37,301 nucleotides of DNA from a virus: IMG/VR virus record IMGVR_UViG_3300015262_000018, positions 1-37,301 of that record. One strand, given 5' to 3'. Positions within the stretch are counted from its first letter, which is position 1, and each line of letters starts with the position of its first letter. The notes under the pieces are model-generated. The model saw only the letters and a list, made by a program, of their open reading frames with translations, searched no databases and had not been told where the DNA came from. Positions 12,390 through 25,982 of this stretch are shown one piece after another. Position numbers and translations under genes: made by a program.

Positions 12390-13178
12390 CTAATCGGAGC
12401 TGAGGGTGTAGGTGGTGTCGTCGATGAACACGGCGTTGTTAGACGTGATCTCGAAGGTTTCGTCATCGAGCATCCGAATAACGTCGTACGGAGCTGTAAC
12501 CGTGAACGTTCCATCGCCATTGTCCGTCACCGTCATCGTAGAGATGGTGTCGTAGGTGGCGAGCAACTCAACGAACGTGGGAATTCTCGCTACTTCGTCG
12601 TCGGTCCCGTAAAGAATATCCTCGATCTGGGAAAGGATCGCGGGGTCTGTCGTACGGGAATCGATGACGATATGCGGAGTTCTCTTGTATCCGTCGAGAG
12701 CTGGAGGTTTCGTTGTGATCTTCCAGCTGAAGTCATCCGGATCGTTCTGCTCTTTGATCGTCTGATGGTTCCGGTCCGTCGGAGAAACCCGAGCGTTGTA
12801 GACGATGTGGAGCTTGTACCCGGCGCTGTCGCTCTGGTCGTTTCCGATCATGGTCCGATAGGACAACCCGAAAGGCTTCCTCCTCTGATGAGTGAGGAAC
12901 AAACCCTGACGGGGTTGAACGCTGCCATCGCAAACCTCGAATTCGAGCGGGTATGTGAAAGCAGTGATGGTCGCCTCGAATTCCTCTGGAGCTGAGACGT
13001 TCAAGTACTTGACGCCATCGAGGTAGTAGGGGCGAGGTTCGCCGCCGGAAGGGGTTTCATTGACGGCGGTCAATCCATTCCATGCGACGCCCGGTTGGCC
13101 TTCGACGTATAGGACGCCTCTGTCAACACCCGCTTCGTAGTAGCGAGTTCCGATAGCATCCCAGTCGAGCCTTGGCAT
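12390..13178 (-). CDS. Second major tail (tube) protein paralogue
   Basis: 262 residues, clearly homologous to the major tail protein at 13766-14653. Both share LxWDxxGxRxYExGVxxGVLY, AWNGLTxVxExPSG, YLN, the block FEVCDGS (AECDGS in the other copy), FGLSYxTxIGND and GYKxHxVYxAxxSPxxxxxxT. The similarity covers about 215 residues; the C-terminal parts differ, and this copy ends in a short TVTDNGDGTFTVTAPYD beta module. It could form a special tube layer, a tail terminator-like cap, or a minor tube subunit. SD GAGGAGG lies before ATG 13178. Confidence 0.87.
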   Translation of the reverse strand: MPRLDWDAIGTRYYEAGVDRGVLYVEGQPGVAWNGLTAVNETPSGGEPRPYYLDGVKYLNVSAPEEFEATITAFTYPLEFEVCDGSVQPRQGLFLTHQRRKPFGLSYRTMIGNDQSDSAGYKLHIVYNARVSPTDRNHQTIKEQNDPDDFSWKITTKPPALDGYKRTPHIVIDSRTTDPAILSQIEDILYGTDDEVARIPTFVELLATYDTISTMTVTDNGDGTFTVTAPYDVIRMLDDETFEITSNNAVFIDDTTYTLSSD

Positions 13179-13765: not shown

Positions 13766-14653
13766 TCACGAGTAGTCGAAGTACCAGTCGTCGTCCGAGA
13801 CGGCCGGGAACTTGTAGCCCGCCGCCGGAGTGGCGTTGACGACGGTGTCCTGGGTGATGACCTGAGGACCGGCGGTCTGGAGAACGCCGTCGATGTAGTA
13901 GTTGACTCCGGTGGTGCCCGGAATGGTGAGAGTGTGGGTCGAGTTGTTGTAGGTCGGCGCGGTCGGAACGACCTCCGTGACCGTGCCGGAGAACATGGCG
14001 ATGACCTCGCCCGGAAGCGGGAGACGGGGGTCCGTACCCGCGGTGCCGTACAGGGCGTCCTGGAGAGTGCCCAGAGCCGTGGCGTCCACCTGCGTCGAGT
14101 CGACGGTCAGGCTGGCGGTCGGCTTGAACGGCTTCCCGGTGGAGGGGTTCGTACCGGGGACCTCGACCGGCGTGGTGGAGATGTCCCAGCTGAGACCCAT
14201 CGCCTCCGGCGAGTCGTTGACGGTGGCGTAGGCCTTCTCAGAGGGAGCCGCCAGGGCGCCGTAGACCAGGTGGATCTTGTATCCGGCCTCCGGGTCCATG
14301 TCGTTGCCGATCTTGGTCTGGTAGGACAGACCGAAGGTCCGACGCGGCTGCTGACCGATGGCGACACCGGCAGTGGGAACCGCGGAGCCGTCGCACTCGG
14401 CCCATGCGTCGGGGTAGGTGAAGGCCTCGATGGTGCCGCCGAACTGCTCGACCGAGAGCAGGTTCAGGTACACCATGTTGTCGGCGTACTGCTTGTTGGA
14501 CTCGGCGCCGGAAGGGGACTCGGTGACGGTGGTCAGACCGTTCCAGGCAGTGCCCTCGTCGTAGACGCCGCTGTTCTGGAGGTAGAGGACGCCCTTGGAC
14601 ACACCGGTCTCGTAGGTGCGCTCTCCGGGCTGGTCCCAAGCGAGCTTGGTCAT
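13766..14653 (-). CDS. Major tail (tube) protein with C-terminal accessory domain
   Basis: 295 residues. The start is ATG 14653 (SD GAGGAG 8 bases upstream); the longer frame would overlap the gene before it. Residues 1-220 are the tube domain, with TAWNGLTTVTESPSGAESN, AECDGS and FGLSYQTKIGNDMDPEAGYK. Residues about 228-295 form an extra beta domain (THTLTIPGTTGVNYYIDGVL, then WYFDYS). That domain closely resembles the C-terminus of the capsid protein at 15307 and is likely exposed on the tube surface. The gene is visibly more GC-rich in third positions than its neighbours, as expected for a highly expressed structural gene. Confidence 0.92.
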   Translation of the reverse strand: MTKLAWDQPGERTYETGVSKGVLYLQNSGVYDEGTAWNGLTTVTESPSGAESNKQYADNMVYLNLLSVEQFGGTIEAFTYPDAWAECDGSAVPTAGVAIGQQPRRTFGLSYQTKIGNDMDPEAGYKIHLVYGALAAPSEKAYATVNDSPEAMGLSWDISTTPVEVPGTNPSTGKPFKPTASLTVDSTQVDATALGTLQDALYGTAGTDPRLPLPGEVIAMFSGTVTEVVPTAPTYNNSTHTLTIPGTTGVNYYIDGVLQTAGPQVITQDTVVNATPAAGYKFPAVSDDDWYFDYS

Positions 14654-14666
14654 GTGGTGTTGCTCC

Positions 14667-14984
14667 TCAGAAATAGAGCTCGAAGACGTCGTGATTGAGG
14701 TCATCCGCCACAAAGAACCGGTTGTACAAGGTCATGGGCAGGGCCGCAATCTTCGCCAGAGTATCCCCATCAGCAGGATCCCTGGAAATATGCGTCAGTT
14801 GATAGCGCTGCGTGTAGCTGTACGGCTTATTGCCTGCGAACTCAGTGTGAGCACTGTCTCGCTGATACACGATGCAGGGATACTGCATTTGCACGTTGGT
14901 GGGGGGTTGAAAATATACATTACTGCTTCCCAACACCCCCTCAAGGAGTGTCTGCAGTTGTTCCCTTCGGTCCGTTGTAGACAC
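14667..14984 (-). CDS. Tail terminator / neck protein (putative)
   Basis: 105 residues from GTG 14984, overlapping the previous gene by 44 bp. The core reads SNVYFQPPTNVQMQYPCIVY, then YTQRYQLTHISRDP, then TLAKIAALPMTLYNRFFVAD and DLNHDVFELYF, with the feel of a tail-terminator or minor head-tail joining family. It lies directly before the major tail gene, where the tail terminator is usually encoded. The assignment is by position and fold-like pattern. TATACA-like stretches at 14910 lie inside the coding region and are not promoters. Confidence 0.72.
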   Translation of the reverse strand: MSTTDRREQLQTLLEGVLGSSNVYFQPPTNVQMQYPCIVYQRDSAHTEFAGNKPYSYTQRYQLTHISRDPADGDTLAKIAALPMTLYNRFFVADDLNHDVFELYF

Positions 14985-15306: not shown

Positions 15307-16605
15307 TCAGGACGCCTTGCGCTTGAACTCCCACGACTGGTTGTCGATCTCGAAGTAGTAGCCGGACGCCGGGACGGCGTAGACCGTGGTGGACGCACCG
15401 GCCGCCAGGGCCGTCTGGGCGCCCGCGGTGAGCGTGGTGCCGTTGCTGTCCTTGTAGACCACGCCGGTCTTCGACGGGATCGTGACGACACCGGTGGTGG
15501 AGTTGAAGGCGGGCTCGGTCGGCTCGACCAGGACGTTGGCCGCGGCGGTCTTCTTGATGACCAGGGCGGACTTCGGGCGGACGAGAGCACCCGACATGCG
15601 GGTCTCCAGCAGGTACTTCTGCTGGTTGTAGTCGATGTCGAAGTCGTCGAACATCGTCAGCTCGCCACCGCGGTCGGTGCCGACGTTGTAGTCGTCGAGG
15701 TTGACGATGATGCCGATGAGGTCGGGGATCTCCTTCATCGGCTCGACGAGCTGGATGTCCTTGACGCCGAGAGCGTCCGCGACCTCCTGCTTGTTGGCGT
15801 AGAACCGACGCTGGTTGCCGTCACGGGCCTTCAGGAACTTGTTGAGCTGCGGGACGGTGGTGTACAGGGTCGGCGTGCCGGTGCCCTTGTAGTACTCCAT
15901 GCCGTCCATGACGGCGTCCACGACCTCCTCGTAGTTCGAGTTGGCGTCGTCGACGTTGACGTTGACCTCGGTGACGAACAGCTCGTGGTCGTTGAGGATC
16001 GAGCGGACACCGGTACCGTCGGCGGCACCCAGCGGGTCCTTGATCTTGTCCTCGTCCGTGATGTCACGGCCGTCGCCGATGAGGATCGCACGCGCGATCT
16101 CCTCCTCGGTCATGAGCCGCATCTCGCCCTTGAGGAAGGCGACGATGTCGAAGTCCGTGATGTCGAGGATGTCGTCCCGGTCGAGCTTCTGCTTCTTGTA
16201 GATCGTGGTCGGGCCGGTGGTCCGCTTGGTGACGCCGAACCATTCCTCGATCTTGTAGTTGCCCTTGATGTAGCCCTTGGCACGGGCCTCGTCCTGCGTG
16301 AGGTCGGCCGTCCAGGTCTTGATCCGGGAGAACGGGGTGTGGCGGGTGCCGTTGAGAACGGAAGACACCCACTCGGTCCGGCGCTTCTCCAGCTCGATGA
16401 CACCGGTGGCCGCCTTGGCGTCCGGGAAGAGGATGTCGATGTCGGTGATGCCGTGCGCGAGGGCGTAGTCCTCGACGGCCTCCTTCAGGGAGCCGACCTT
16501 CTCCATCTTCTTGACGATGCCTCGGACGTCGTCCGCGGTGAGGCTGTGCTTCAGCGACCCACCCTTCTTGGCGGCGTCGCTCTGGTCGAAAACGTTGCGC
16601 GACAT
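15307..16605 (-). CDS. Major capsid protein from internal start (same frame as 15307-17340)
   Basis: The 432-residue C-terminal part of the fusion. The ATG at 16605 has a perfect AAGGAGG 7 bases upstream, better than most starts in this window, and the product begins MSRNVFDQSDAAKKGG. Its length is typical of a complete HK97-type capsid subunit with its N-terminal delta-like region. This would give an excess of capsid protein over protease, as assembly needs. Dual initiation is inferred from the SD and not proven; cleavage by the fused protease is an alternative or additional route. Confidence 0.72.
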   Translation of the reverse strand: MSRNVFDQSDAAKKGGSLKHSLTADDVRGIVKKMEKVGSLKEAVEDYALAHGITDIDILFPDAKAATGVIELEKRRTEWVSSVLNGTRHTPFSRIKTWTADLTQDEARAKGYIKGNYKIEEWFGVTKRTTGPTTIYKKQKLDRDDILDITDFDIVAFLKGEMRLMTEEEIARAILIGDGRDITDEDKIKDPLGAADGTGVRSILNDHELFVTEVNVNVDDANSNYEEVVDAVMDGMEYYKGTGTPTLYTTVPQLNKFLKARDGNQRRFYANKQEVADALGVKDIQLVEPMKEIPDLIGIIVNLDDYNVGTDRGGELTMFDDFDIDYNQQKYLLETRMSGALVRPKSALVIKKTAAANVLVEPTEPAFNSTTGVVTIPSKTGVVYKDSNGTTLTAGAQTALAAGASTTVYAVPASGYYFEIDNQSWEFKRKAS

Positions 16606-17340
16606 GCTGTCGCCTCCTTCGTTGTGGGTGAGGGCAGAGTGCTGAGCGTTCTTCGTGGCGTCTTCGAGAGCCGTACCGACGACGAAGTACATGGCGTTCT
16701 TCTGCTCTTCGGTCATGCTGTCGATGACGTCGTTGAGGGTGGCGTCGTCGGCGACTGCGTGGGAAACGGAAACGTCGGACTCGGTGCCTTCGTCGTCGGA
16801 CTCGTCGCCCTCTTCGTCGTCCAGCTCGTCATCGTCGTTGGAGGGCTCGTCCTCTTCCTCGTCGAGGGCGTGTTCGAGCTCCAGACCGGTGTGGATGACC
16901 GCCTCGTCGTCCAGCTCGGAGAGGGAGCCGTCACCGTGCTGGATCGCAACGAAGTCGATCTTCGCACCGGGATTGGCTCCCGCCAGAACGAGGCTCACCT
17001 CACGGATCTGTCCGTGGACGACGTTCTTGGCCTTCTCGACCAGCTGATTGGCGAAGATGGAGAGGGCGTTGATGTCCTTGTGCTGGACCATCTGCTTGGC
17101 CGTCTGGCCCTGCTTGGTCGAGTTGAAGAACCCGTAGGCGTAGACGCCCTCGTCGCGGTTCTCCAGGATCGCGTGGCCGAGAACGTTGTCCACGCTGTGG
17201 TGGCCGTGCTGCCAGACCAGCGGAACCTGCTGCTGGTCCATGTGCTCGAAAGCACCCCGCATGATGGTTCGGCCGTCAGTGCACTTGAGACCAGCCTTCG
17301 TGGCCCAGCCGCCGAAGTCGGCTTCGATTTCGGTTGCCAT
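15307..17340 (-). CDS. Fused HK97-type prohead protease, acidic scaffold and major capsid protein
   Basis: 677 residues, made of three parts. Residues 1-135 are a prohead protease with H45/H47/H48 in VWQHGHHSVDNVLGH and a likely catalytic Ser116 in REVSLVLAGANPGAKI. Residues 136-245 are an acidic, Asp/Glu-rich linker that could act as scaffold. Residues 246-600 are the HK97-fold capsid protein (TGPTTIYKKQKLDRDD, LMTEEEIARAILIGDGRD, RMSGALVRPKSALVI). Residues about 603-677 are an extra domain shared with the tail tube protein. The start ATG 17340 has AAGGAG. An internal AAGGAGG (16613-16619) precedes an in-frame ATG at 16605, so free capsid protein (432 residues) can also be made directly. The gene has strongly GC-biased codons. 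Confidence 0.93.
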   Translation of the reverse strand: MATEIEADFGGWATKAGLKCTDGRTIMRGAFEHMDQQQVPLVWQHGHHSVDNVLGHAILENRDEGVYAYGFFNSTKQGQTAKQMVQHKDINALSIFANQLVEKAKNVVHGQIREVSLVLAGANPGAKIDFVAIQHGDGSLSELDDEAVIHTGLELEHALDEEEDEPSNDDDELDDEEGDESDDEGTESDVSVSHAVADDATLNDVIDSMTEEQKNAMYFVVGTALEDATKNAQHSALTHNEGGDSMSRNVFDQSDAAKKGGSLKHSLTADDVRGIVKKMEKVGSLKEAVEDYALAHGITDIDILFPDAKAATGVIELEKRRTEWVSSVLNGTRHTPFSRIKTWTADLTQDEARAKGYIKGNYKIEEWFGVTKRTTGPTTIYKKQKLDRDDILDITDFDIVAFLKGEMRLMTEEEIARAILIGDGRDITDEDKIKDPLGAADGTGVRSILNDHELFVTEVNVNVDDANSNYEEVVDAVMDGMEYYKGTGTPTLYTTVPQLNKFLKARDGNQRRFYANKQEVADALGVKDIQLVEPMKEIPDLIGIIVNLDDYNVGTDRGGELTMFDDFDIDYNQQKYLLETRMSGALVRPKSALVIKKTAAANVLVEPTEPAFNSTTGVVTIPSKTGVVYKDSNGTTLTAGAQTALAAGASTTVYAVPASGYYFEIDNQSWEFKRKAS
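16605..16619 (-). promoter_or_regulatory. Internal ribosome-binding site and ATG for the capsid protein
   Basis: AAGGAGG at 16613-16619 and ATG at 16603-16605 on the minus strand, spaced 7 bases, lie inside the protease-capsid fusion frame at codons 241-246. The SD is encoded by the Glu-Gly-Gly codons just after the acidic linker. Its quality and its place exactly at the domain border argue for real use. Confidence 0.72.
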
Positions 17341-17355
17341 TTTGACTGCTCCTTC

Positions 17356-17883
17356 CTACTTCTTCGTGTTGGTCCGGGATCCGAGGTCGCCGCTCGCGTG
17401 CATCTTCTCGATCCTCGCTTTGATGGTCTTGATTCTCTCGTTCAAGGACTTGACCTCTGCCGAGAGATCACTGTTGGTTGCCGTACCGTTCTTGACGGCT
17501 TCTTCCCGGCGACGCTTCTCGTCTGCTTCGGCCTTTGCCTTCTTCTGAGCCGCAGTGAGCTTCTGAGGTTTGGCGCTGGCTTTCTGCTGAGAGGTAGTGG
17601 TCTTCTTAGCAGCAGTCTTGGTCGGCTTTACCCCACTGCGTTTCTTGGCCTGTTCGACCAGGATCTTCAGCGCTGCCTGGAGCTTTTCGAGACGACCTTT
17701 GAGCGCGTCTACTTGCTCCTGAAGTTGGGTATGCCGTTCCTTAGCGATCTCCGCTCTCGACTTGACCCGAGGCTTCGTCACTCTTACGGAACCGTGCTTA
17801 CGGCCCTTCAACTGACGATTCTTCAGGTAGTATTCACGACGCTTAGCCGCGTCATACACGTGAGAGAGGGAATCCTCACCCAT
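17356..17883 (-). CDS. Basic coiled-coil protein encoded between portal and capsid genes
   Basis: 175 residues. The N-terminus has YDAAKRREYYLKNRQLKGRK, a motif that looks like a recurrent leader in phage head-region proteins (from memory). A coiled coil at about 43-80 (QLQEQVDALKGRLEKLQAAL) is followed by a Lys/Thr/Ala-rich linker and a second coiled coil at about 140-163 (LSAEVKSLNERIKTIKARIE). The start ATG 17883 overlaps the portal stop by 8 bp. It could be an internal scaffold or a minor head protein. No catalytic motif is visible. Confidence 0.75.
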   Translation of the reverse strand: MGEDSLSHVYDAAKRREYYLKNRQLKGRKHGSVRVTKPRVKSRAEIAKERHTQLQEQVDALKGRLEKLQAALKILVEQAKKRSGVKPTKTAAKKTTTSQQKASAKPQKLTAAQKKAKAEADEKRRREEAVKNGTATNSDLSAEVKSLNERIKTIKARIEKMHASGDLGSRTNTKK

Positions 17884-19210
17884 CAGTTATCCCGAGGGTC
17901 TGAAAGATGGAATCGACGACAGCATTAGCGTCGTCCAATCCACTTTGTACAGCGGCGTCACCGGATGCAGACGGATCGACACTATCGGCCGGTGGTATAC
18001 CGACTGAATCACCAGGCTGTGGCATGTTGCTGTTCACAAGCTGATCGGCCTTCGGATCCTTCGAGGGACGCCAGCCGATTGCCTGACGAATATCGTTGGA
18101 AGAAGCGATCTCGTTGCGGGTGAACTTGTCAGCAATCTCCGCGATGGTCTCCATCGGAACGAGCTTGAAAGGATCACGGAAGTACATGATCGATTGGCCT
18201 TGCGTCCGAGCGGTCTTGGTCAAGAAGGTGCGCTTCATGGCCTCTGCGATTGCCTGAATGACAGGTTCGACTGTTCGGTTGAAGTAGTTCAACATGGCCT
18301 TCTCGTCGGCCGTGCCATTCATCACTTCTTCCGTAAGACCGAGCTGAGCATAGAGCAACTTCGTAAGGTACTCGATCTGGTTGAGAAGGTTGTTCTCAGC
18401 GGGACGGTTCAGCTGAGTGATCTTCTCGGTTCCGTCGGTATAGGCAATGCCGTACTGACTTCCCTTGAGTTGGAACTCAATATCCCGACGTCGCTGTTCG
18501 GCCTGCTCTCGCCTGGCCTCGGACTTGATCACGTAAGGGAGCTGGATGATCATGTCGAGTTTGCCGGAACTGGTCTGCTCATCTACCGAGTCCAGCATGC
18601 TGAGCTTCCGTATGAGCCTCTGCAAAGTCGAGTTCGGCTCGTTCATTACGGAATATAGCGGGTTCTCGACAATCGCCGTGGACTTCTTGGCGACAGTCAC
18701 ATCCTTGCGCTGACCATCTCGTTCGTCGTAAAGGCTCACCCTGATGTGTTGGGGGAACCACTCAACGACTCGACCGACCCGCATCGTGTTGATGATGTAG
18801 CTGTTGGAAACGGAAGGGTCAGTGTCGGTGTCGACCGGCACAATAGCCGCGACGCCTTCTTCGAACAGAGTCTGGGCAATATCCTGACGGAACTGCCTAG
18901 CAGCTTGATCGACATTGGCTTCTACAGTCAGACAGTCCTGTAGTCCACTGACTCGATCATTGAGATACCGTCCATCGTCGTCGAGCTGAACATGTCGAAT
19001 ATCGATCGCCGAAACATCGATAGCCAAACGCGTATAGATCGACGAGATGATTGACCTCTCGCTCGAAGATCGCGATCGGCTCCTACCCGACGGACTGGAA
19101 TATCCCCAACCGTATCCACTCGTCCGGATTTCATCCCAGTAATTGGGGTCCGTGAAGAGATTCCAGCTGTGCTTCAAACCCTCCTTCATTCGCGCAAGCA
19201 AGTTTGCCAT
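17876..19210 (-). CDS. Portal protein (HK97 family)
   Basis: 444 residues. N-terminal region YGWGYSSPSGRSR; wing strands SIISSIYTRLAIDVSAIDI; stem helix NLLNQIEYLTKLLYAQLGLT followed by EEVMNGTADEKAMLNYFNRT, and crown helix RDPFKLVPMETIAEIADKFT. The C-terminus IGWRPSKDPKADQL with P-rich tail is usual for the SPP1/HK97 portal superfamily. The portal is the dodecameric DNA gate at one capsid vertex. SD GAGGAGGTG precedes ATG 19210. The gene lies downstream of the terminase and two tagged proteins. Confidence 0.93.
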   Translation of the reverse strand: MANLLARMKEGLKHSWNLFTDPNYWDEIRTSGYGWGYSSPSGRSRSRSSSERSIISSIYTRLAIDVSAIDIRHVQLDDDGRYLNDRVSGLQDCLTVEANVDQAARQFRQDIAQTLFEEGVAAIVPVDTDTDPSVSNSYIINTMRVGRVVEWFPQHIRVSLYDERDGQRKDVTVAKKSTAIVENPLYSVMNEPNSTLQRLIRKLSMLDSVDEQTSSGKLDMIIQLPYVIKSEARREQAEQRRRDIEFQLKGSQYGIAYTDGTEKITQLNRPAENNLLNQIEYLTKLLYAQLGLTEEVMNGTADEKAMLNYFNRTVEPVIQAIAEAMKRTFLTKTARTQGQSIMYFRDPFKLVPMETIAEIADKFTRNEIASSNDIRQAIGWRPSKDPKADQLVNSNMPQPGDSVGIPPADSVDPSASGDAAVQSGLDDANAVVDSIFQTLGITDG

Positions 19211-19242: not shown

Positions 19243-19806
19243 CTAGCCGATGCCCATGTCTCGAAGGAGGTTCTGGGCTCTCTTCATGCCCTCGGGGTCC
19301 TTGATCTTGTTGAAAGCCTGCTTGCCTTTGTCCAGGATGATCTTGTCGATCCCGGCTTTATGGGCATACAGAGCTCCTCCGACGGCAATGGCAGTAGCCG
19401 CAGAAGCGTACTGAGAGTTTCCGTTGAGGATATGGCGAGTACCACGAATCCCCCTACCGGCGCTCTTCTTTACGTTCTTCCGCTTTCGCTCGCTGCGAGC
19501 CTTCTCGGCGTGCTTGGACATGTCCTGTTTGGCGAGGTGGTGATCGAAGGCACGCTGATATGCAGGATCCTTCTTACCTCGTGCCTCGACAGCAGCCTTG
19601 ATCAGCTTACGTCGAGTACCAGCACCTTCGCCGTAGAACATCTTGGCGCGAGCGAATTCCTTGGCATCGCTTCGGGCCTGTCGATTGGTCTTGTTGGAGA
19701 CGCCAGTCGGACCATTACGCCTCACACCCCAGTGCATTCCCTTGATGCCGTAGTGCGAGAGAACCACCTCATCGAGGGGCGGATTCACTCCGCGAATGAC
19801 CTTCAC
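19243..19806 (-). CDS. HYGIKGMHWGVRR-tagged basic head-region protein
   Basis: 187 residues from GTG 19806 (SD GGGAGGTG). Residues 16-30 read LSHYGIKGMHWGVRR, the shared tag. A compact helical domain follows (DAKEFARAKMFYGEGAGTRR, then KLIKAAVEARGKKDPAYQRA, with HHLAKQDMSKHAEKARSERK) and then a hydrophobic segment near residues 133-147 (YASAATAIAVGGALY). The protein is strongly basic. Comparable domains occur with the same tag in actinophage structural genes as far as I recall. A role inside the capsid or as an ejected protein is plausible from its place next to the portal; the function is unknown. Confidence 0.78.
   Translation of the reverse strand: MKVIRGVNPPLDEVVLSHYGIKGMHWGVRRNGPTGVSNKTNRQARSDAKEFARAKMFYGEGAGTRRKLIKAAVEARGKKDPAYQRAFDHHLAKQDMSKHAEKARSERKRKNVKKSAGRGIRGTRHILNGNSQYASAATAIAVGGALYAHKAGIDKIILDKGKQAFNKIKDPEGMKRAQNLLRDMGIG
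19717..19761 (-). other. Tag copy 1: LSHYGIKGMHWGVRR
   Basis: Encodes residues 16-30 of the 19243-19806 protein. The DNA matches the other three copies (20190-20229, 20742-20778, 23075-23111) at most positions over about 30 bp, including CCCTTGA on the plus strand. That is more than protein constraint alone would usually give across unrelated proteins. Confidence 0.8.
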
Positions 19807-19818
19807 TTTTCACCTCCC

Positions 19819-20871
19819 TCACAGGTTCGTGATCTTGTATGCCCCGCTACCTCGCTTCTGCTTGGCGTAGGACGGCCCGCTCGTGGCTCGGCGAGGGAGG
19901 CCCATGGCGTTCGCCGTGGCAGCCTGACCACGCTTGGTTTCGGCTCGGACCGCTACCTGCTGAGCAAGAACGTCCTTGTTGGCCAGAACGATCCGTGCAG
20001 CCTGAACCGAACCAGCGACGATAGCCGCTTTTCCGATTTGCCTCCACGCTTCGTTCTGCTGAGCCTTGGCGAGCTTCTGCCCCTTGTTCATACGGCGGTT
20101 GATGCGTTTGACGCCACCCTTGCCGAATGTCTTCTGATCCTCGGCCCGACGACGAGCAGAATATCTGGGGTTCGGGGAGTCATCACGACCCTTACGAACT
20201 CCCCAGTGCATTCCCTTGACTCCATGATGAATGAGTTCGGAATGCTTGGCGTCGAATTCATAGACCATGTCGGTAAGACCTCCCCAGACAGAGTCGTCCG
20301 TGGGGTCTCCTTCCTTGGTCACCTTGAATCCGAGCTTCTCATAGATGTGACGGGCGTCTGGGGAGTTGCCGGGAACCTCCAGCGTCATCCTCTTGAAGCC
20401 CTGCTGCTTACCGAAATCGCGACCGGCCTTCATGACAGCTGTGGCATAGCCTTTGCCTCGGGCAGACTTGTCGATTCCGAGCCAGTTAAGGTAGAGCTCT
20501 TCGTCGTTCTTCTTCTGAACGTTCGCGTCACCGACCTTCTTGCCTGAACCGTCCAAAATATCGAGAGAGGCCTCATTCGCATAGCCCTCTCGGTACTTCG
20601 GACTGATCCTCCCGAGGAAATTGTGTAGCTTGCTCGGCGGAACCTTCCGAAGAGTGATCGTCTCACCAGACGCAGTTTTTCGTGAAACCGAATCCGGGCC
20701 TAGAGACTTGAGAGGCTCTCTCGTGGATTTGAGGCGGTCTTTTCGAACTCCCCAATGCATCCCCTTGACGCCGTAATGCTTGACAGGATCGTCTGTCTTC
20801 GGCATGTTCGACTCGATGAGATCGAGGAGACCGCCGTACACTTCTTCGAGATCGAAATCGTCCTCGTTCAT
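19819..20871 (-). CDS. Doubly tagged GNAT acetyltransferase fusion
   Basis: 350 residues from ATG 20871 (SD AAGGAG, ATGA overlap with the terminase stop). Layout: acidic leader 1-30; tag KHYGVKGMHWGVRK at 31-44; GNAT domain about 95-205 with acetyl-CoA motif ARGKGYATAVM (137-147) and C-terminal ARHIYEKLGF (173-182); second tag HHGVKGMHWGVRKGR at 215-229; then a basic Ala/Arg-rich helical tail. An in-frame ATG at 20268 (residue 202) has GGAGG 10 bases upstream, so the second tag plus tail could be made alone. It looks like two tagged genes fused. The acetylation substrate is unknown; a host-directed target after ejection is speculation. Confidence 0.82.
   Translation of the reverse strand: MNEDDFDLEEVYGGLLDLIESNMPKTDDPVKHYGVKGMHWGVRKDRLKSTREPLKSLGPDSVSRKTASGETITLRKVPPSKLHNFLGRISPKYREGYANEASLDILDGSGKKVGDANVQKKNDEELYLNWLGIDKSARGKGYATAVMKAGRDFGKQQGFKRMTLEVPGNSPDARHIYEKLGFKVTKEGDPTDDSVWGGLTDMVYEFDAKHSELIHHGVKGMHWGVRKGRDDSPNPRYSARRRAEDQKTFGKGGVKRINRRMNKGQKLAKAQQNEAWRQIGKAAIVAGSVQAARIVLANKDVLAQQVAVRAETKRGQAATANAMGLPRRATSGPSYAKQKRGSGAYKITNL
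20190..20229 (-). other. Tag copy 2: HHGVKGMHWGVRK (second tag of the GNAT fusion)
   Basis: Encodes residues 215-227 of the GNAT fusion. It lies between the acetyltransferase domain and a basic tail, and an internal SD-ATG sits about 40 bases upstream of it. The tag is therefore both C-terminal to the enzyme and N-terminal to the tail. Confidence 0.8.
20742..20778 (-). other. Tag copy 3: KHYGVKGMHWGVRK (first tag of the GNAT fusion)
   Basis: Encodes residues 31-44 of the GNAT fusion protein, right after an acidic leader. Same core as the other copies: H-x-G-x-K-G-M-x-W-G-V-R. Confidence 0.8.
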
Positions 20872-22610
20872 TCGAACATCTCCTTGTTGGCCTTGAAAGC
20901 GATCCAAGCGTCCATCATGGCGGCGACGTTGTCGATCTTCGCGTCCTGGCGCTTCTTCAGGAGCTTGCGGTTACCGTTCGTGTCCTCCATGGTGATGGCA
21001 TTACCCATGGCGAAAGTCATGAGTGCTTGATCAAAGACAAGTAGACGTTGTTCACTCAGAATCTTGAGTTCCCCAAGCGGGACCGATTCTGTCTTGGCTC
21101 CCTGGATCACTTTCTCAATGCCAAACGGACCGTTCTCCGCCTCCCAGCGGGTTACGAACTCCTTAGCGTTGTAGGGGTCGAAACCAAGTGCACGCACGTC
21201 ATACTCTTGTTCCTGGATGAAGGCGTCCAGGTCATCAAATACCTGCATCATGTCGAGGACGGTACCCTCAAGAACATGCAGGCTGCCTTCGTTAATGAAC
21301 TCATCGTACTTCTGCCGCATGGCTCCAGGAAGCTTCATCAACGTCAATGACGTGATATAACTCCTGGTTTTTATGCCGAAGCCCTCTCGCAATGGAAAGA
21401 GGAATGTGAATGCGCAGAAGTCATCGCCCTGAGAAAGGTCGGCGCCCAGAGCACAAGGCATACGCCAGAACTCTTTTCGAGGATGAGGCAACGTCTCCTC
21501 GTAAGTGAAGAAGTACGTGTAACCCTCCATCGGTATGCCGAAACGTTTCGCCAGAATGTCATTCCGGGAAGCTGGGGCTTTCTCGGCTCGTTCAACATCG
21601 AGTTGATAGGTTTCATAAGTAACCGTCTTCCCGAGGTTAGGGTTGGCCTTTAGCCACATCGCTGGATTTGCGACCTCTTCCAGCTCGTCCAATCTGTAGT
21701 GCCAGATCGAGACGTGAGGGGCTTGGTACTCACCCTTGAGAATATCGGCAAGCTCCAGCTTGATGGTGTCGCCGCTACCGTTACGTACAGTCCCTTCTGA
21801 GCTGATCGCCACAATGAGGTAGTCGTCGAGCTTCGAGGCACCCTGTTCGATTGCACCGACCACGTCCTCTCGAATATCGCCCGACAACCATTCGTCGATT
21901 GTGGAGATCTTGGGGCGGAGCCCCTGGAGCTTGTTGACCGACATCGGTCGGACCTCTAGCAATGAACCTGTCAAAAAATTCTCGACACCCTTCTTTGTCG
22001 ATGCAAGCTTGACTCGGTTCGCTTTCGATCCTGTGGTGTTCTGCAGTGATCCTTCAGTAAGGAACTGAAAGAGTGGGCCGCGGCTCCGAGTGATGGCAGT
22101 GCGGAAAGGTGACATCACCTCATCAGCCTGCTTCATGGTTGGAGCTGTTGTGATTTGATGCGTTGTCGCTGTGTCGACATTCAAGAAATAACTCTGGATG
22201 CATTCGGCATACATCGACTTGGCAGCGCCTCGGGCGACGATGAGATATTGCTTTGTCGTTAGTCGTTTCCTGATTGTCTTAGTGACATACTTTCCGCCGT
22301 GGTTGTTCGGACTGGGTTCGTAGACGCTCCGATCGACGAAGTAGTACCACCCGAATATCTGCTCAGCCCAAATCTTGAAAGACGGCAGGAGGTGGAGATC
22401 AGCTCCGTCGGTCAGAGTAAGCTCATTCTCACAATAGAGAATAAAGCCTTCTACCGGTCCGTCATCGTAGTAGATGTTCGGGTTGGCGATGAGTGAGTCG
22501 ATCCGGTTCATCTCCAGAGAGATCTCTCGATTGACGGGGATCTCGCCGCGAATAACGGCATCACGGAATTCGCCGTAATACCTCGGCGTCGCCGTGTTCG
22601 ACAGTGTCAT
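20868..22610 (-). CDS. terL: Terminase large subunit
   Basis: 580 residues. The ATPase domain carries a variant Walker A ARGAAKS (126-132) preceded by YLIV and a Walker B STIDE (236-240). The C-terminal RNase H-like nuclease shows three acidic sites: ALGADLSQGDD, ALGFDPYNAKEF and DAKIDNVAAMMDA. It matches the Terminase_1 (HK97-type) family, which cuts concatemers and pumps DNA through the portal. The family is often linked to HNH proteins, and one is encoded at 25998. Here the small subunit candidate and HNH are separated from it by four genes. SD AAAGGAGG lies before ATG 22610. Confidence 0.95.
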   Translation of the reverse strand: MTLSNTATPRYYGEFRDAVIRGEIPVNREISLEMNRIDSLIANPNIYYDDGPVEGFILYCENELTLTDGADLHLLPSFKIWAEQIFGWYYFVDRSVYEPSPNNHGGKYVTKTIRKRLTTKQYLIVARGAAKSMYAECIQSYFLNVDTATTHQITTAPTMKQADEVMSPFRTAITRSRGPLFQFLTEGSLQNTTGSKANRVKLASTKKGVENFLTGSLLEVRPMSVNKLQGLRPKISTIDEWLSGDIREDVVGAIEQGASKLDDYLIVAISSEGTVRNGSGDTIKLELADILKGEYQAPHVSIWHYRLDELEEVANPAMWLKANPNLGKTVTYETYQLDVERAEKAPASRNDILAKRFGIPMEGYTYFFTYEETLPHPRKEFWRMPCALGADLSQGDDFCAFTFLFPLREGFGIKTRSYITSLTLMKLPGAMRQKYDEFINEGSLHVLEGTVLDMMQVFDDLDAFIQEQEYDVRALGFDPYNAKEFVTRWEAENGPFGIEKVIQGAKTESVPLGELKILSEQRLLVFDQALMTFAMGNAITMEDTNGNRKLLKKRQDAKIDNVAAMMDAWIAFKANKEMFE

Positions 22611-22625
22611 CGTCCACCCTCCTTT

Positions 22626-23168
22626 CTACCTTCCGACGTTCGTGTAGTGGTTTGACATTCTCCGAACAGCGAGACCAGCGCCTGCGGCTGCGGCTCCCGA
22701 AGCTCCTCCGGTGTAAGCGGCAGCACCGACCTTGGCGACCCCGAAAGCGGCCTTGAGTGCCTTTCCTGCGGGGCTATTCATGAACTTGTGGACTTCGTTG
22801 ACTGTCTTGCCGATGCTGAGCACCTGCTTGACCGCCGTATGTCCGGAGTCCAGTGCGTTCTTCTGCCTCGGAGTGGGCTCGGAAGTCAGTCGGTGGTACT
22901 GCTGTTCGAGGTTCAGACGAGTCACGACATTCTGGAGTTCGTGATTCGAAAGAGCGTCGGTTCCACCACGATTGATCTTGCCGAAAGCCTTCTCCACGGC
23001 CTTGGCGTCCTCTGAAGCCCGCGCCTTCGGAGTGGTCTGAGCCGTGGAAGAAGAACCCCCACCGGAATCACTCTTCCGGACACCCCAACGCATCCCCTTG
23101 ACGCCGTAGTGAGAGAGACCGGCTTCGTGCATGGCGAAGAAGGCGCGGCCTCGTTCAGTCTGAGACAT
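22626..23168 (-). CDS. Tag-domain protein from internal start (same frame as 22626-23741)
   Basis: ATG 23168 has GGAGGT (23173-23178) 5 bases upstream and would give a 180-residue protein beginning MSQTERGRAFFAMHE, followed 17 residues later by the tag. It lacks the phosphoesterase domain. The arrangement mirrors the tagged 19243-19806 gene, where the tag is near a true N-terminus, suggesting that an older separate gene was fused to the enzyme while its own start was kept. Confidence 0.5.
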   Translation of the reverse strand: MSQTERGRAFFAMHEAGLSHYGVKGMRWGVRKSDSGGGSSSTAQTTPKARASEDAKAVEKAFGKINRGGTDALSNHELQNVVTRLNLEQQYHRLTSEPTPRQKNALDSGHTAVKQVLSIGKTVNEVHKFMNSPAGKALKAAFGVAKVGAAAYTGGASGAAAAGAGLAVRRMSNHYTNVGR

Positions 23169-23741
23169 AGCTACCTCCATGGGCGACTGACGCTTGAGTT
23201 GGAACGTAGGACCTGAGTAATCTCCGTCCCACAGAGCAATCCGATCGAAGTTGACCCCGTAAATCTTGTCGAAACCGTCGGGGAATTTCTTCGCCGGGGA
23301 AGTCGGATAGCCCAGCGTCAAATGAGGAGTCCACTGGGGGAACTGATCCGCTGACAGATATGCCGAGTCAACGAGATCATTCTTCAGAAGCTGAGACCGG
23401 AAAGTCTCAATCTCCTTGGCCCACTGCTTGTCGAAGAACAGAACATCGGCATTCTGATCCCCCAGAACTCCCCGACTCTCAACGTCGAGATAGAACTGAG
23501 AAAGAAGAGATGCCGCATGCTCTACGTAGCCGACGACCAGATCCATCTGCGTCTGGTCATATCCAGGATTACCCAAATACAAGAGGGTGAGATGCGGTTC
23601 TTTCTCACTTGAGATCTTGCGAACTGGATCATCGGCCGAAGGAATGGCTGCGATGATCATCGACTTGTCAGCGTGGGAAATGCTGTTCAGCCCCACCAGT
23701 TCGTTGACGATGTGGCGGTTTCCGCCATGGGATCGACCCAC
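22626..23741 (-). CDS. Tagged 2H phosphoesterase fusion (2'-5' RNA ligase-like)
   Basis: 371 residues. The N-terminal domain (about 27-185) has both 2H motifs: PHLTLLYLG (HLT 50-52) and PHLTLGYP (HLT 140-142), spaced as in LigT/2H phosphoesterases. The tag LSHYGVKGMRWGVRK is at 209-223, then a helical region (LSNHELQNVVTRLNLEQQYH) and an Ala/Gly-rich hydrophobic stretch near 330-355. The start is uncertain: GTG 23741 has AGGGAGGGAG upstream; GTG 23696 or ATG 23660 are alternatives. An internal GGAGGT precedes in-frame ATG 23168 (residue 192). 2H enzymes include the Acb1 anti-CBASS nuclease, so a counter-defence role is possible, but it could also act on RNA ends. Confidence 0.8.
   Translation of the reverse strand: MGRSHGGNRHIVNELVGLNSISHADKSMIIAAIPSADDPVRKISSEKEPHLTLLYLGNPGYDQTQMDLVVGYVEHAASLLSQFYLDVESRGVLGDQNADVLFFDKQWAKEIETFRSQLLKNDLVDSAYLSADQFPQWTPHLTLGYPTSPAKKFPDGFDKIYGVNFDRIALWDGDYSGPTFQLKRQSPMEVAMSQTERGRAFFAMHEAGLSHYGVKGMRWGVRKSDSGGGSSSTAQTTPKARASEDAKAVEKAFGKINRGGTDALSNHELQNVVTRLNLEQQYHRLTSEPTPRQKNALDSGHTAVKQVLSIGKTVNEVHKFMNSPAGKALKAAFGVAKVGAAAYTGGASGAAAAGAGLAVRRMSNHYTNVGR
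23075..23111 (-). other. Tag copy 4: HYGVKGMRWGVRK in the 2H phosphoesterase fusion
   Basis: Encodes residues 211-223 of the fusion. The core agrees with the other copies apart from M-R-W instead of M-H-W. Confidence 0.8.
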
Positions 23742-24079
23742 GAGTCTCCCTCCCTCACGATGCTCATTCGAACTTCGAGCTCCTCGATCTGCTTGTTGAG
23801 CGACTCGATGACGAAGGATGTCTGAGGCGGGTCGAACAAAAGACGTACTCTCAGATAGATATACGTCTTGACCATGTTGAGCCGCTTGTCGCCTGCGAGG
23901 AAGTCATCCCACGTTGGCGTAGCGTCCTCAATCATGAAGCCCTCGGTCGGGCCTATGCCCAACTGATGGAGGACTGAGAAAACGGTGTTCGTGTGCAGGA
24001 TGACATCGGCGTCGAAACTAGTGTCGGCTTCGGCAATACCGATGATCTTCTTGACACTGGTGAGTATGCTGTCTACCAC
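23687..24079 (-). CDS. Head-tail connector (gp6-like adaptor)
   Basis: 130 residues from GTG 24079 with GGGAGG 7 bases upstream; the longer frame would run into the endolysin gene. The pattern FDADVILHTNTVFSVLHQLG, then TWDDFLAGDKRLNMVKTYIY, LFDPPQTSFVIE and the end WVDPM is that of the gp6-like head-tail connector family. That ring binds under the portal. Its gene normally follows the capsid gene, but here it lies upstream of the terminase. The stop overlaps the 2H fusion by 55 bp if GTG 23741 is used. Confidence 0.82.
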   Translation of the reverse strand: MVDSILTSVKKIIGIAEADTSFDADVILHTNTVFSVLHQLGIGPTEGFMIEDATPTWDDFLAGDKRLNMVKTYIYLRVRLLFDPPQTSFVIESLNKQIEELEVRMSIVREGDSWVDPMAETATSSTNWWG

Positions 24080-24108
24080 GTAGGAACCTCCCTCCAGATA
24101 TGGCGGGC

Positions 24109-24960
24109 TCAGCCGAAGAGTCGGTTGACTTCCTTCTGAACGGTGCTGGCGTTGTAACCGGCCTTGGTGAGGCGGGCGACTCGATCCGCTCCGGTGCCCC
24201 ACTTGCCGTCGATGACCTCGTGCGCGATCTCGTTGATCGACTTGCGCTTCGGCTTGGTGGTGCTGGAGAGCAGACGGTTGACCTCAGCCTGAACGGTCTT
24301 GGCGTCGTACCCGGCGTCCTTCAGCTTCTTGACTCGGGTATCGCCGGTGCCCCACTTGCCGTCGATCACTTCGAGAGCGATCTGGCGGACGGACTTCCGC
24401 GGTATGGGGGTGGAGGGGCGCGGGGAGGAGGGGGAGTGCTCGTCGCTCTCGGTGAAGTGCGCGTACCACTTCTGAACCTCACCGAGAAGCTCGGTCCGGA
24501 TCTTGTCCATGAACGGACCGGGGCATGCAGTCGCCGACCAGTCGTGGTGGTAGTAGACGTTGTTCTTAGTCGGCTTCTCCTTGATGACGTGGGCGAAGAG
24601 CCAACCCGCCAGACGGGCGGCCGACTTCCACGTGGTCTCGGAGACCTCCCAGTTGGGGGCGAACGTCTCGTCGGCCATCTCGATGGAAATGGAGGACTCG
24701 TTGCCTCCGCGGTTGCCGACGGCCCAGGCGTACTCCTTGACGTGGACGTACTGAGCGACCCGGCCGTGGGAGTCGACGTCGAAGTGGGCCGAAGCCGGGC
24801 GGGTCTTCCAGACCGCGAGAACACCGGCGTGGGTGAGGTTTCCACCGTTGTGATGGAAGGTGACGGACGTCTTCTTGAACTGCGTGTGGGTGACGTGTCC
24901 GGTGGCGCTGAGCGCGGCGATGAAGTCGCCGACGGGCTCGTCGTAGGATATGGTACCCAT
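24109..24960 (-). CDS. Endolysin: N-acetylmuramoyl-L-alanine amidase with two CW_7 repeats
   Basis: 283 residues. The amidase (PGRP/Amidase_2) domain spans about 1-165: TFHHNGG (H36/H37), SAHFDVDSHGRVAQYV, SSISIEM with E94, and YYHHDWSATACPGP (H138/H139, C146) supply the zinc and catalytic residues. After a Pro/Ser linker, two CW_7 (Cpl-7-type) wall-binding repeats follow at about 190-231 and 241-282, each with IAxEVIDGKWGTGxxRVxxL and VxxEVNRLL. No signal peptide is visible, so release depends on a holin. The gene is 22 kb from the holin pair. SD GGGAG precedes ATG 24960. The codons are GC-rich like the capsid gene. Confidence 0.95.
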   Translation of the reverse strand: MGTISYDEPVGDFIAALSATGHVTHTQFKKTSVTFHHNGGNLTHAGVLAVWKTRPASAHFDVDSHGRVAQYVHVKEYAWAVGNRGGNESSISIEMADETFAPNWEVSETTWKSAARLAGWLFAHVIKEKPTKNNVYYHHDWSATACPGPFMDKIRTELLGEVQKWYAHFTESDEHSPSSPRPSTPIPRKSVRQIALEVIDGKWGTGDTRVKKLKDAGYDAKTVQAEVNRLLSSTTKPKRKSINEIAHEVIDGKWGTGADRVARLTKAGYNASTVQKEVNRLFG

Positions 24961-24974
24961 GTGTTCTCCCAGGT

Positions 24975-25982
24975 TTATGAAGGATTTTGCCCGATGTTCT
25001 TCAGGCGCAGATAGAACGGGTAAGAAGGTGCGGCGTAAACACGATTCGATGCACCGGCAGCCGAACCAATATGCGCCAGCCCAACTCTCACTTTCCCGTC
25101 GCTTCCGATGACACCAGAACCAACGGTGAACATCGGAGGTGAGGAATGCTTGCTTACTGTGAGGATGGGGTAAAGACCAGGTCGGCCTTCAGATGGAGGG
25201 GTGGAAGATCTCGACGTCCCGTAGTAAAGAATCGCGTTCAAGGATTCATCCATAAGAACCCAGTCCATGTAGTGCGAACCGAGGTACAGAAAATCAGCGA
25301 ACACTTCTATTCGATCTCCGGGGGAAGCATCGATGGCTCCTGCGAGAGCAGTTCCTGAAGAGGTTCGAACGACCGTCCAAGAGGAGACTCCCGGAAGACC
25401 TGACAGATCGTCATCTATGACCGTTACTTCTATGGTCTTGCTCGAACCGCCAGAAACCCCAGGATCACCCTTGGGTCCTTGGATTCCCTGCTCTCCTTGG
25501 TCGCCCTTGGGTCCTTGTTCTCCGGGATCACCCTTGGGTCCTTGGATTCCCTGAAGACCTTGTTCCCCACGATCGCCTTTGGGTCCGACCACAGGAACGT
25601 AGTTCGGAGTGGCTGGGTTGATCTCGGCAATCGTGTTCAGATCCAAAGTGGATCCGCTCGAAAAACCCTTGAGAGAGAAGACGTGAACTCGTGTCTTACC
25701 CTCGATGGTTATGAAGACCTTCCACAACCAATCACGAGGATTCGACCCTGGCGCTGAATTATCGAGAAGCTCGACTCCAGGTACCCCGTCGTCTGAAATC
25801 AAACGACCCTGCGAGTCGAACCGATAACTTCCCCCGCCAGTCCATCGAACGGTGCTTCCGTTGATGACGATTTCGGGAACGGTCGGTTCGAACCGAACGC
25901 CTCCGCTAAGTCGCCTTCCCTCGACAGGACTTTTGACAGTGAGATTCACAGTCTTGGTCGGGGTGCCGGGAGGGAATGACAT
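24975..25982 (-). CDS. Collagen-like tail fibre / appendage protein
   Basis: 335 residues. The N-terminal beta domain (1-130) includes [20 protein letters not shown]. Collagen-type Gly-X-Y triplets at about 133-175 ([20 protein letters not shown] and following) form a trimeric shaft. The C-terminal domain of about 155 residues ([20 protein letters not shown] to the end) is beta-rich and may bind a ligand or the virion. Collagen-like proteins are frequent on actinophage tails. Placement beside the endolysin and HNH genes near the packaging site is unusual for a fibre. SD GAGGAGGAG precedes ATG 25982. Confidence 0.85.

Follow-up and report, generated by a model that had tools for sequence, protein, structure and literature searches.

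Why would a phage join an enzyme to a short tag and encode it among its head genes? A gene in a 37,301-nucleotide stretch of DNA from a soil phage (IMG/VR record IMGVR_UViG_3300015262_000018, hereafter the window) raises this question. Its product combines an N-terminal 2H phosphoesterase domain, a DUF7211 tag and a helical tail. The explanation that we hold with a little more confidence than doubt is that the protein is a metal-independent phosphodiesterase of the 2H type, an exchangeable passenger that its tag loads into the head and that is ejected with the DNA for early action on a nucleotide or RNA. Overall, an ordinary enzyme fold is joined to an interesting carrier, and DUF7211 has the appearance of a cargo-loading signal. 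While the enzyme adds one more member to a known superfamily, the novelty lies in the tag carrier.

The gene lies on the minus strand directly between a head-tail connector gene and the terminase large subunit gene (TerL, Table 1). Its start is ambiguous: GTG 23741 sits just behind an AGGGAGG-like sequence and overlaps the connector gene, and the equivalent of ATG 23660 is the start in many relatives. The catalytic histidines are H50 and H140 when counted from the GTG, and H23 and H113 when counted from the ATG. Altogether the window carries four tags in three genes, one in the 2H gene, two in a GNAT acetyltransferase gene (20749-20778 and 20200-20229) and one in the gene for a 187-residue protein.

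Table 1 Features of the window and of phages with related 2H domains in capsid maturation protease proteins. Positions are those of the window unless a locus is named.
Feature	Position	Strand	Remarks
2H phosphoesterase-DUF7211 tag-helical tail gene	22626-23741	-	371 aa from GTG 23741; 344 aa from ATG 23660
2H phosphoesterase domain	23190-23660	-	Catalytic HxT at H23/T25 and H113/T115 (ATG 23660 numbering); PF13563
DUF7211 tag HYGVKGMRWGVRK	23064-23117	-	PF23847; low pLDDT; free third codon positions
Conserved helical tail, commonest segment beside the tag	22629-23060	-	phrog_11022, E=5e-30; 77-member segment cluster; AlphaFold2 helices
Head-tail connector protein, directly upstream of the 2H-tag gene	23687-24202	-	PF24829, E=2e-39
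Terminase large subunit (TerL), directly downstream of the 2H-tag gene	20868-22610	-	phrog_9, E=5e-110
Tagged GNAT gene: tag, GNAT acetyltransferase, tag, tail	19819-20907	-	DUF7211 twice; PF00583, E=1.5e-11
Third tagged gene, small, 187 aa	19243-19806	-	Tag at 19711-19764; phrog_6291, E=1.5e-78
Portal protein, downstream limit of the tagged block	17876-19210	-	PF04860, E=1.3e-14
Fused head maturation protease-major capsid protein	15307-17340	-	No tag; phrog_3270, E=4e-248
2H-in-protease protein	L131:6332-9484		MuF adjoining
2H-in-protease protein	L132:6332-8833		MuF adjoining
2H-in-protease protein	L133:6974-9577		

The N-terminal part of the protein is a genuine 2H phosphoesterase domain. 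It matches the 2'-5' RNA ligase superfamily (PF13563, 2_5_RNA_ligase2) with E=2.9e-6 and 27.8 bits against a cut-off of 27, and phrog_24711 with E=5e-63. The two HLT motifs on which the original prediction was built are exact at residues 50-52 and 140-142 (GTG numbering, spacing 90) and are followed, as it had noted, by the tag, with HYGVKGMRWG at residues 211-220 (window 23082-23111). H23, T25, H113 and T115 (ATG numbering) are invariant in an alignment of 48 full-length relatives, most of which were retrieved with patterns containing HxT. Among the 2H ORFs from a tag-only search, which involved no HxT selection, 12 have both motifs and a thirteenth is truncated by the contig end. Family-specific motifs, for example RGxLG...ADVxFF and WxPHLTxGxP, are also conserved in the 48 relatives. 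An AlphaFold2 model has pLDDT values mostly above 90 over residues 1-157; the tag region that follows is disordered and the tail is helical. In VIA-align comparisons the model matches YjcG (Z 12.9), Arabidopsis CPDase (12.7), human Usb1 (12.1), LigT (11.9) and the rotavirus VP3 2',5'-phosphodiesterase (11.5), with the best alignment extending over 137 residues at 3.4 Å. Profile match, residue conservation and structural match together bear out the 2H assignment. LigT/ThpR, YjcG, CPDase and Usb1 are the best structural matches across the whole 2H domain, but they share only 12-20% identity with it and are cellular, untagged proteins.

The tag is a clear member of DUF7211 (PF23847, E=9e-11, 41.4 bits against a gathering score of 27). 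Its low pLDDT in the AlphaFold2 model indicates a linear motif, and with one sequence per cluster its core reads L-x-H-[YHF]-G-[VI]-K-G-M-[KR]-W-G-[VI]-R. The codons of the conserved residues are free to vary in their third positions, and selection on the tag therefore acts at the protein level; a nucleic-acid-level element is ruled out by the same observation. Pfam gives no function for DUF7211, and in the literature searched we found no function for it and no mention of its name or its motif.

A scan of IMG/VR with the tag pattern returned at least 120 tagged loci. At least 115 of the 120 listed also encode a homolog of the connector, the terminase, the portal or the protease-capsid fusion of the window phage. 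When whole tagged proteins were grouped by single linkage, nearly all of them merged through shared tails, and segments were clustered instead: splitting the proteins at their tags gave 294 segments in 117 clusters. 2H segments occur in 17 of the 90 tagged proteins of one set, and domain matches identify GNAT, papain-fold glutamine deamidase, metallopeptidase and NTPase domains as other passengers. Tag-domain units are strung together in some proteins, up to four in locus L106, and in L099 and its relatives the window-type GNAT is fused behind the 2H domain in a single protein (2H-tag-GNAT-tag-tail). Because such varied segments and repeated tag-domain units carry DUF7211, the tag behaves, judged from these architectures, as a module that marks passengers. 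The tail is helical; its PDB matches all have Z<4 and its phage matches are confined to its own kin.

Several tagged proteins merit mention in their own right. The four-unit protein (L106:4265-6487, plus strand) has 740 residues and is polyprotein-like, some of its units being separate genes elsewhere. One of these units corresponds to the small phrog_6291 protein of the window, which has homologs in many tagged phages. In five loci an N-terminal module with the motif KLPVKTPDGSLNRNGVHAAAAALAGAR replaces the 2H domain before the tag (e.g., L030:3439-4887, L046:11016-12215 and L050:4035-4811), and the L030 protein has a weak metallopeptidase M90 match. A papain-fold toxin 1/glutamine deamidase-like domain (PF15644) was found in 12 of 174 tagged proteins scanned (e.g., L008:9739-11382); it is possible that these proteins are injected deamidases. 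The tag pattern was also found in 43 stretches of prokaryote assemblies (L216-L258), many of them gut Firmicutes MAGs and probably phage or prophage contigs. Tagged phages thus probably extend well beyond Actinobacteria.

The tags are confined to one part of the head gene region. In seven complete phage genomes, every one of the 34 tags falls within the interval from the connector gene to the portal gene, which makes up about 6-12% of each genome. Each genome has two to nine tags (ClubPenguin 4, ReqiPepy6 8, Secretariat 5, SendItCS 2, 1706 2, Rima 4 and Qui 9), and they sit on otherwise unrelated proteins. In the Streptomyces phage ClubPenguin, gp5 shares 76% identity with the window protein, and gp7-gp9 are its other tagged proteins. 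The 2H genes themselves are similarly placed: the connector is directly upstream of 91 and TerL directly downstream of 94 of the 98 2H ORFs outside MuF proteins, with both neighbors present in 87. Among 79 loci retrieved with a 2H profile, 76 carry the strict tag, two carry variants (HVGVKGMKWG and HFGVTGMRWG) and one is cut by the contig end. Because the tag recurs on many unrelated proteins that are encoded only among head genes, we conclude from gene content and order that the enzyme is probably packed in the virion and injected with the DNA. Location among head genes and joint transcription with them are also compatible with a late protein that is not packaged. The one direct hint of packaging is that the tagged gp07 of Lactococcus phage 1706 is annotated in its record as a 'structural protein'; a literature search covering phage 1706, ReqiPepy6 and actinophages found no virion proteomics on any 2H-tag protein.

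The 2H part comes and goes at a conserved position. It is present in 14 of 82 connector-terminase slots, a sample of IMG/VR loci that were not selected for 2H and a few GenBank phages that were. A TerL tree requires seven changes of 2H state, and well supported branches make at least three of them unavoidable. Of the Streptomyces phages in GenBank, 54 have a match to the tag and tail, but only 7 have one to 2H. No bacterial or archaeal relatives of the 2H part were confirmed in 84,980 genomes. From this distribution, 2H appears as an accessory domain whose gain and loss take place at one conserved slot, and since most slots lack it, the head can do without it.

Phages of Microbacterium, Arthrobacter and Curtobacterium have the same 2H subfamily built into their capsid maturation protease protein (tblastn E down to 5e-21). 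In OneinaGillian, Wilde and Kithara the MuF/protease fusion matches phrog_24711, and in the first two of these phages the 2H domain is located between MuF and the protease region. No DUF7211 tag was found in these three phages, and no Pfam or PHROG match to MuF was found in the window protein. Since the same subfamily sits both in untagged MuF/protease proteins and in tagged proteins, sequence comparison indicates that one 2H enzyme family has been attached independently to two different head-protein carriers. Several GenBank records name relatives 'RNA ligase'. This label reflects the use of 2'-5' RNA ligase as a family name for 2H proteins, and we saw no ATP-dependent RNA ligase domain.

MuF/portal-fused 2H domains have been described before, and injection and counter-defence were proposed for them (PMC5512222). 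They share with the window protein the superfamily, the subfamily as defined by phrog_24711 and the head gene context. The 2H domain of the window, in contrast, is carried neither by MuF nor by portal but by a DUF7211-tagged protein whose gene separates those for connector and terminase. The general idea of an injected 2H enzyme that degrades defence nucleotides is therefore already published for the MuF/portal-fused versions, and the injection idea has since been repeated (PMC5512222, PMC9503650).

The internal proteins of T4 offer a second comparison. They are injected, disarm restriction enzymes and share only a targeting leader (PMC3012670, PMC12373910). Like the tagged set, IPI-IPIII are unrelated small proteins that have only a short tag in common, with several per genome, and they are accessory and variable. 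DUF7211 differs in that it is often internal and repeated between domains, its passengers include enzymes rather than inhibitors, and the head genes beside it include a fused protease-capsid gene; its role in packaging, moreover, is a predicted one. The likeness that we see to the T4 capsid targeting sequence is one of logic. By this logic, the DUF7211 tag would serve as a capsid-loading signal in the manner of the T4 capsid-targeting peptide, and the tagged enzyme would be packaged inside the head and leave it together with the DNA. In the new host it might then act on a nucleotide or RNA in a way that favors the first minutes of infection, a step of which we are less certain. The enzyme could clear a defence signal of the cyclic oligonucleotide or 2'-5' oligoadenylate type, or it could cut or trim host or damaged RNA. 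We see an even chance that DUF7211 is a general cargo-loading signal with which a widespread group of phages, of Actinobacteria and probably of Firmicutes, pack and inject exchangeable effectors, including 2H enzymes, acetyltransferases, papain-fold deamidases, metallopeptidases, NTPases and many unknown domains. Such a system would amount to a modular equivalent of the T4 internal proteins and of MuF fusions.

Tag and tail could instead serve the head as structure or scaffold, or provide a recognition site for the maturation protease, with the enzymes acting during assembly in the producing cell and never being injected. No segment is found beside the tag more often than the tail, most connector-TerL slots hold a tagged ORF, and one tagged protein weakly matches a scaffold model, all of which would suit a role in assembly. 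A general processing site should, however, mark the protease-capsid fusion and the portal, and no tag was found in either, which weakens the case for a maturation-protease site. GNAT, papain-fold deamidase and NTPase domains have no obvious assembly role, and MuF fusions are the usual architecture of injected proteins. We therefore regard action confined to assembly as unlikely. Virion delivery, the second element of the original prediction, gains several independent lines of indirect support from the connector-portal location of the tags, from the MuF/protease kin and from the tag shared among passengers.

The predicted fold is nearer to YjcG, LigT, CPDase and Usb1, that is, to the RNA 2',3'-phosphodiesterase type (Z 12-13), than to Acb1 (Z 8), so that an injected enzyme may have one of several kinds of substrate. 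The protein may be an RNase or an RNA-end trimmer, resembling Usb1 or a LigT/ThpR-like CPDase, that works on host RNA or on tRNA cut by host anticodon nucleases and not on signalling nucleotides. Besides the closest structures, the best NCBIfam match points this way: it is TIGR02258 (RNA 2',3'-cyclic phosphodiesterase, E=2e-6), with 27.7 bits far under the equivalog cut-off of 65.7. For MuF-fused 2H domains, Iyer et al. favored an RNase or 2'-5' oligoadenylate role, considered defence nucleotides as targets and noted that RNA ligases are never associated (PMC5512222). A search of seven complete 2H-carrying phage genomes for PF09414, RtcB and KptA found no homolog; a ligase of the T4 Rnl1 type (PF09511) or of the host might still serve. 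Repair of cut tRNA normally needs an RNA ligase. Phage-encoded RNA repair is less likely given that these three partners were not found, and a phage repair pathway is not apparent. We treat activity on RNA as a tentative candidate that falls short of an even chance.

The protein could also be a virion-delivered analogue of Acb1, destroying the cyclic oligonucleotide signals of CBASS or type III CRISPR systems. Acb1 has the same 2H fold with an HxT/HxT tetrad (PMC9117128), and the window protein has this tetrad as well, which is common to the whole 2H superfamily and not diagnostic. Acb1 (7t26) aligns with the model over 115 residues at 3.3 Å with Z 8.2 and 22% identity, a score that many other 2H families exceed. 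An accessory, exchanged domain is what counter-defence would lead one to expect, and there is a weak sequence-profile match to a poxvirus cGAMP phosphodiesterase. Against this, the structure is clearly nearer LigT, YjcG and CPDase, no Acb1 sequence-profile match was found at E<=1, the HxT spacing is 90 compared with 69 in Acb1 (H44-H113, PMC9117128), and the base-stacking residues of Acb1 could not be mapped onto the window protein. Acb1 is, furthermore, a small free-standing protein. With no sequence match at E<=1 and a weaker structural match, direct membership of the Acb1 family is not favored; an Acb1-like function is kept as a possibility that we consider rather doubtful. The original prediction is thus plausible and in part already in print, although the structure comparison does not favor its Acb1-like version.

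To our knowledge, injected phage proteins are hard to recognize by sequence, there being no general signal outside T4-like phages and MuF or polyvalent fusions. If the DUF7211 tag marks cargo, searching many actinobacterial and gut phages for one short motif would bring up candidate enzymes for counter-defence and host takeover, and the injected proteins of a phage could be listed from its genome. Reporter proteins could likewise be packed into phage heads by means of the tag. The 2H enzyme would be the best test case for a cargo tag: its catalytic residues have been identified, and its subfamily occurs independently in MuF head proteins.

Two further observations concern other genes of the window. 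Distinct minus-strand ORFs at 12390-13178 and 13766-14713 match the major tail protein family phrog_2645 (E=1e-101 and 1e-112), and because two different ORFs match this family, paralogous major tail proteins seem to be present in this phage. A collagen-like protein with GPKGD repeats (PF01391) is encoded at 24975-25982 on the minus strand, directly upstream of the amidase endolysin gene.
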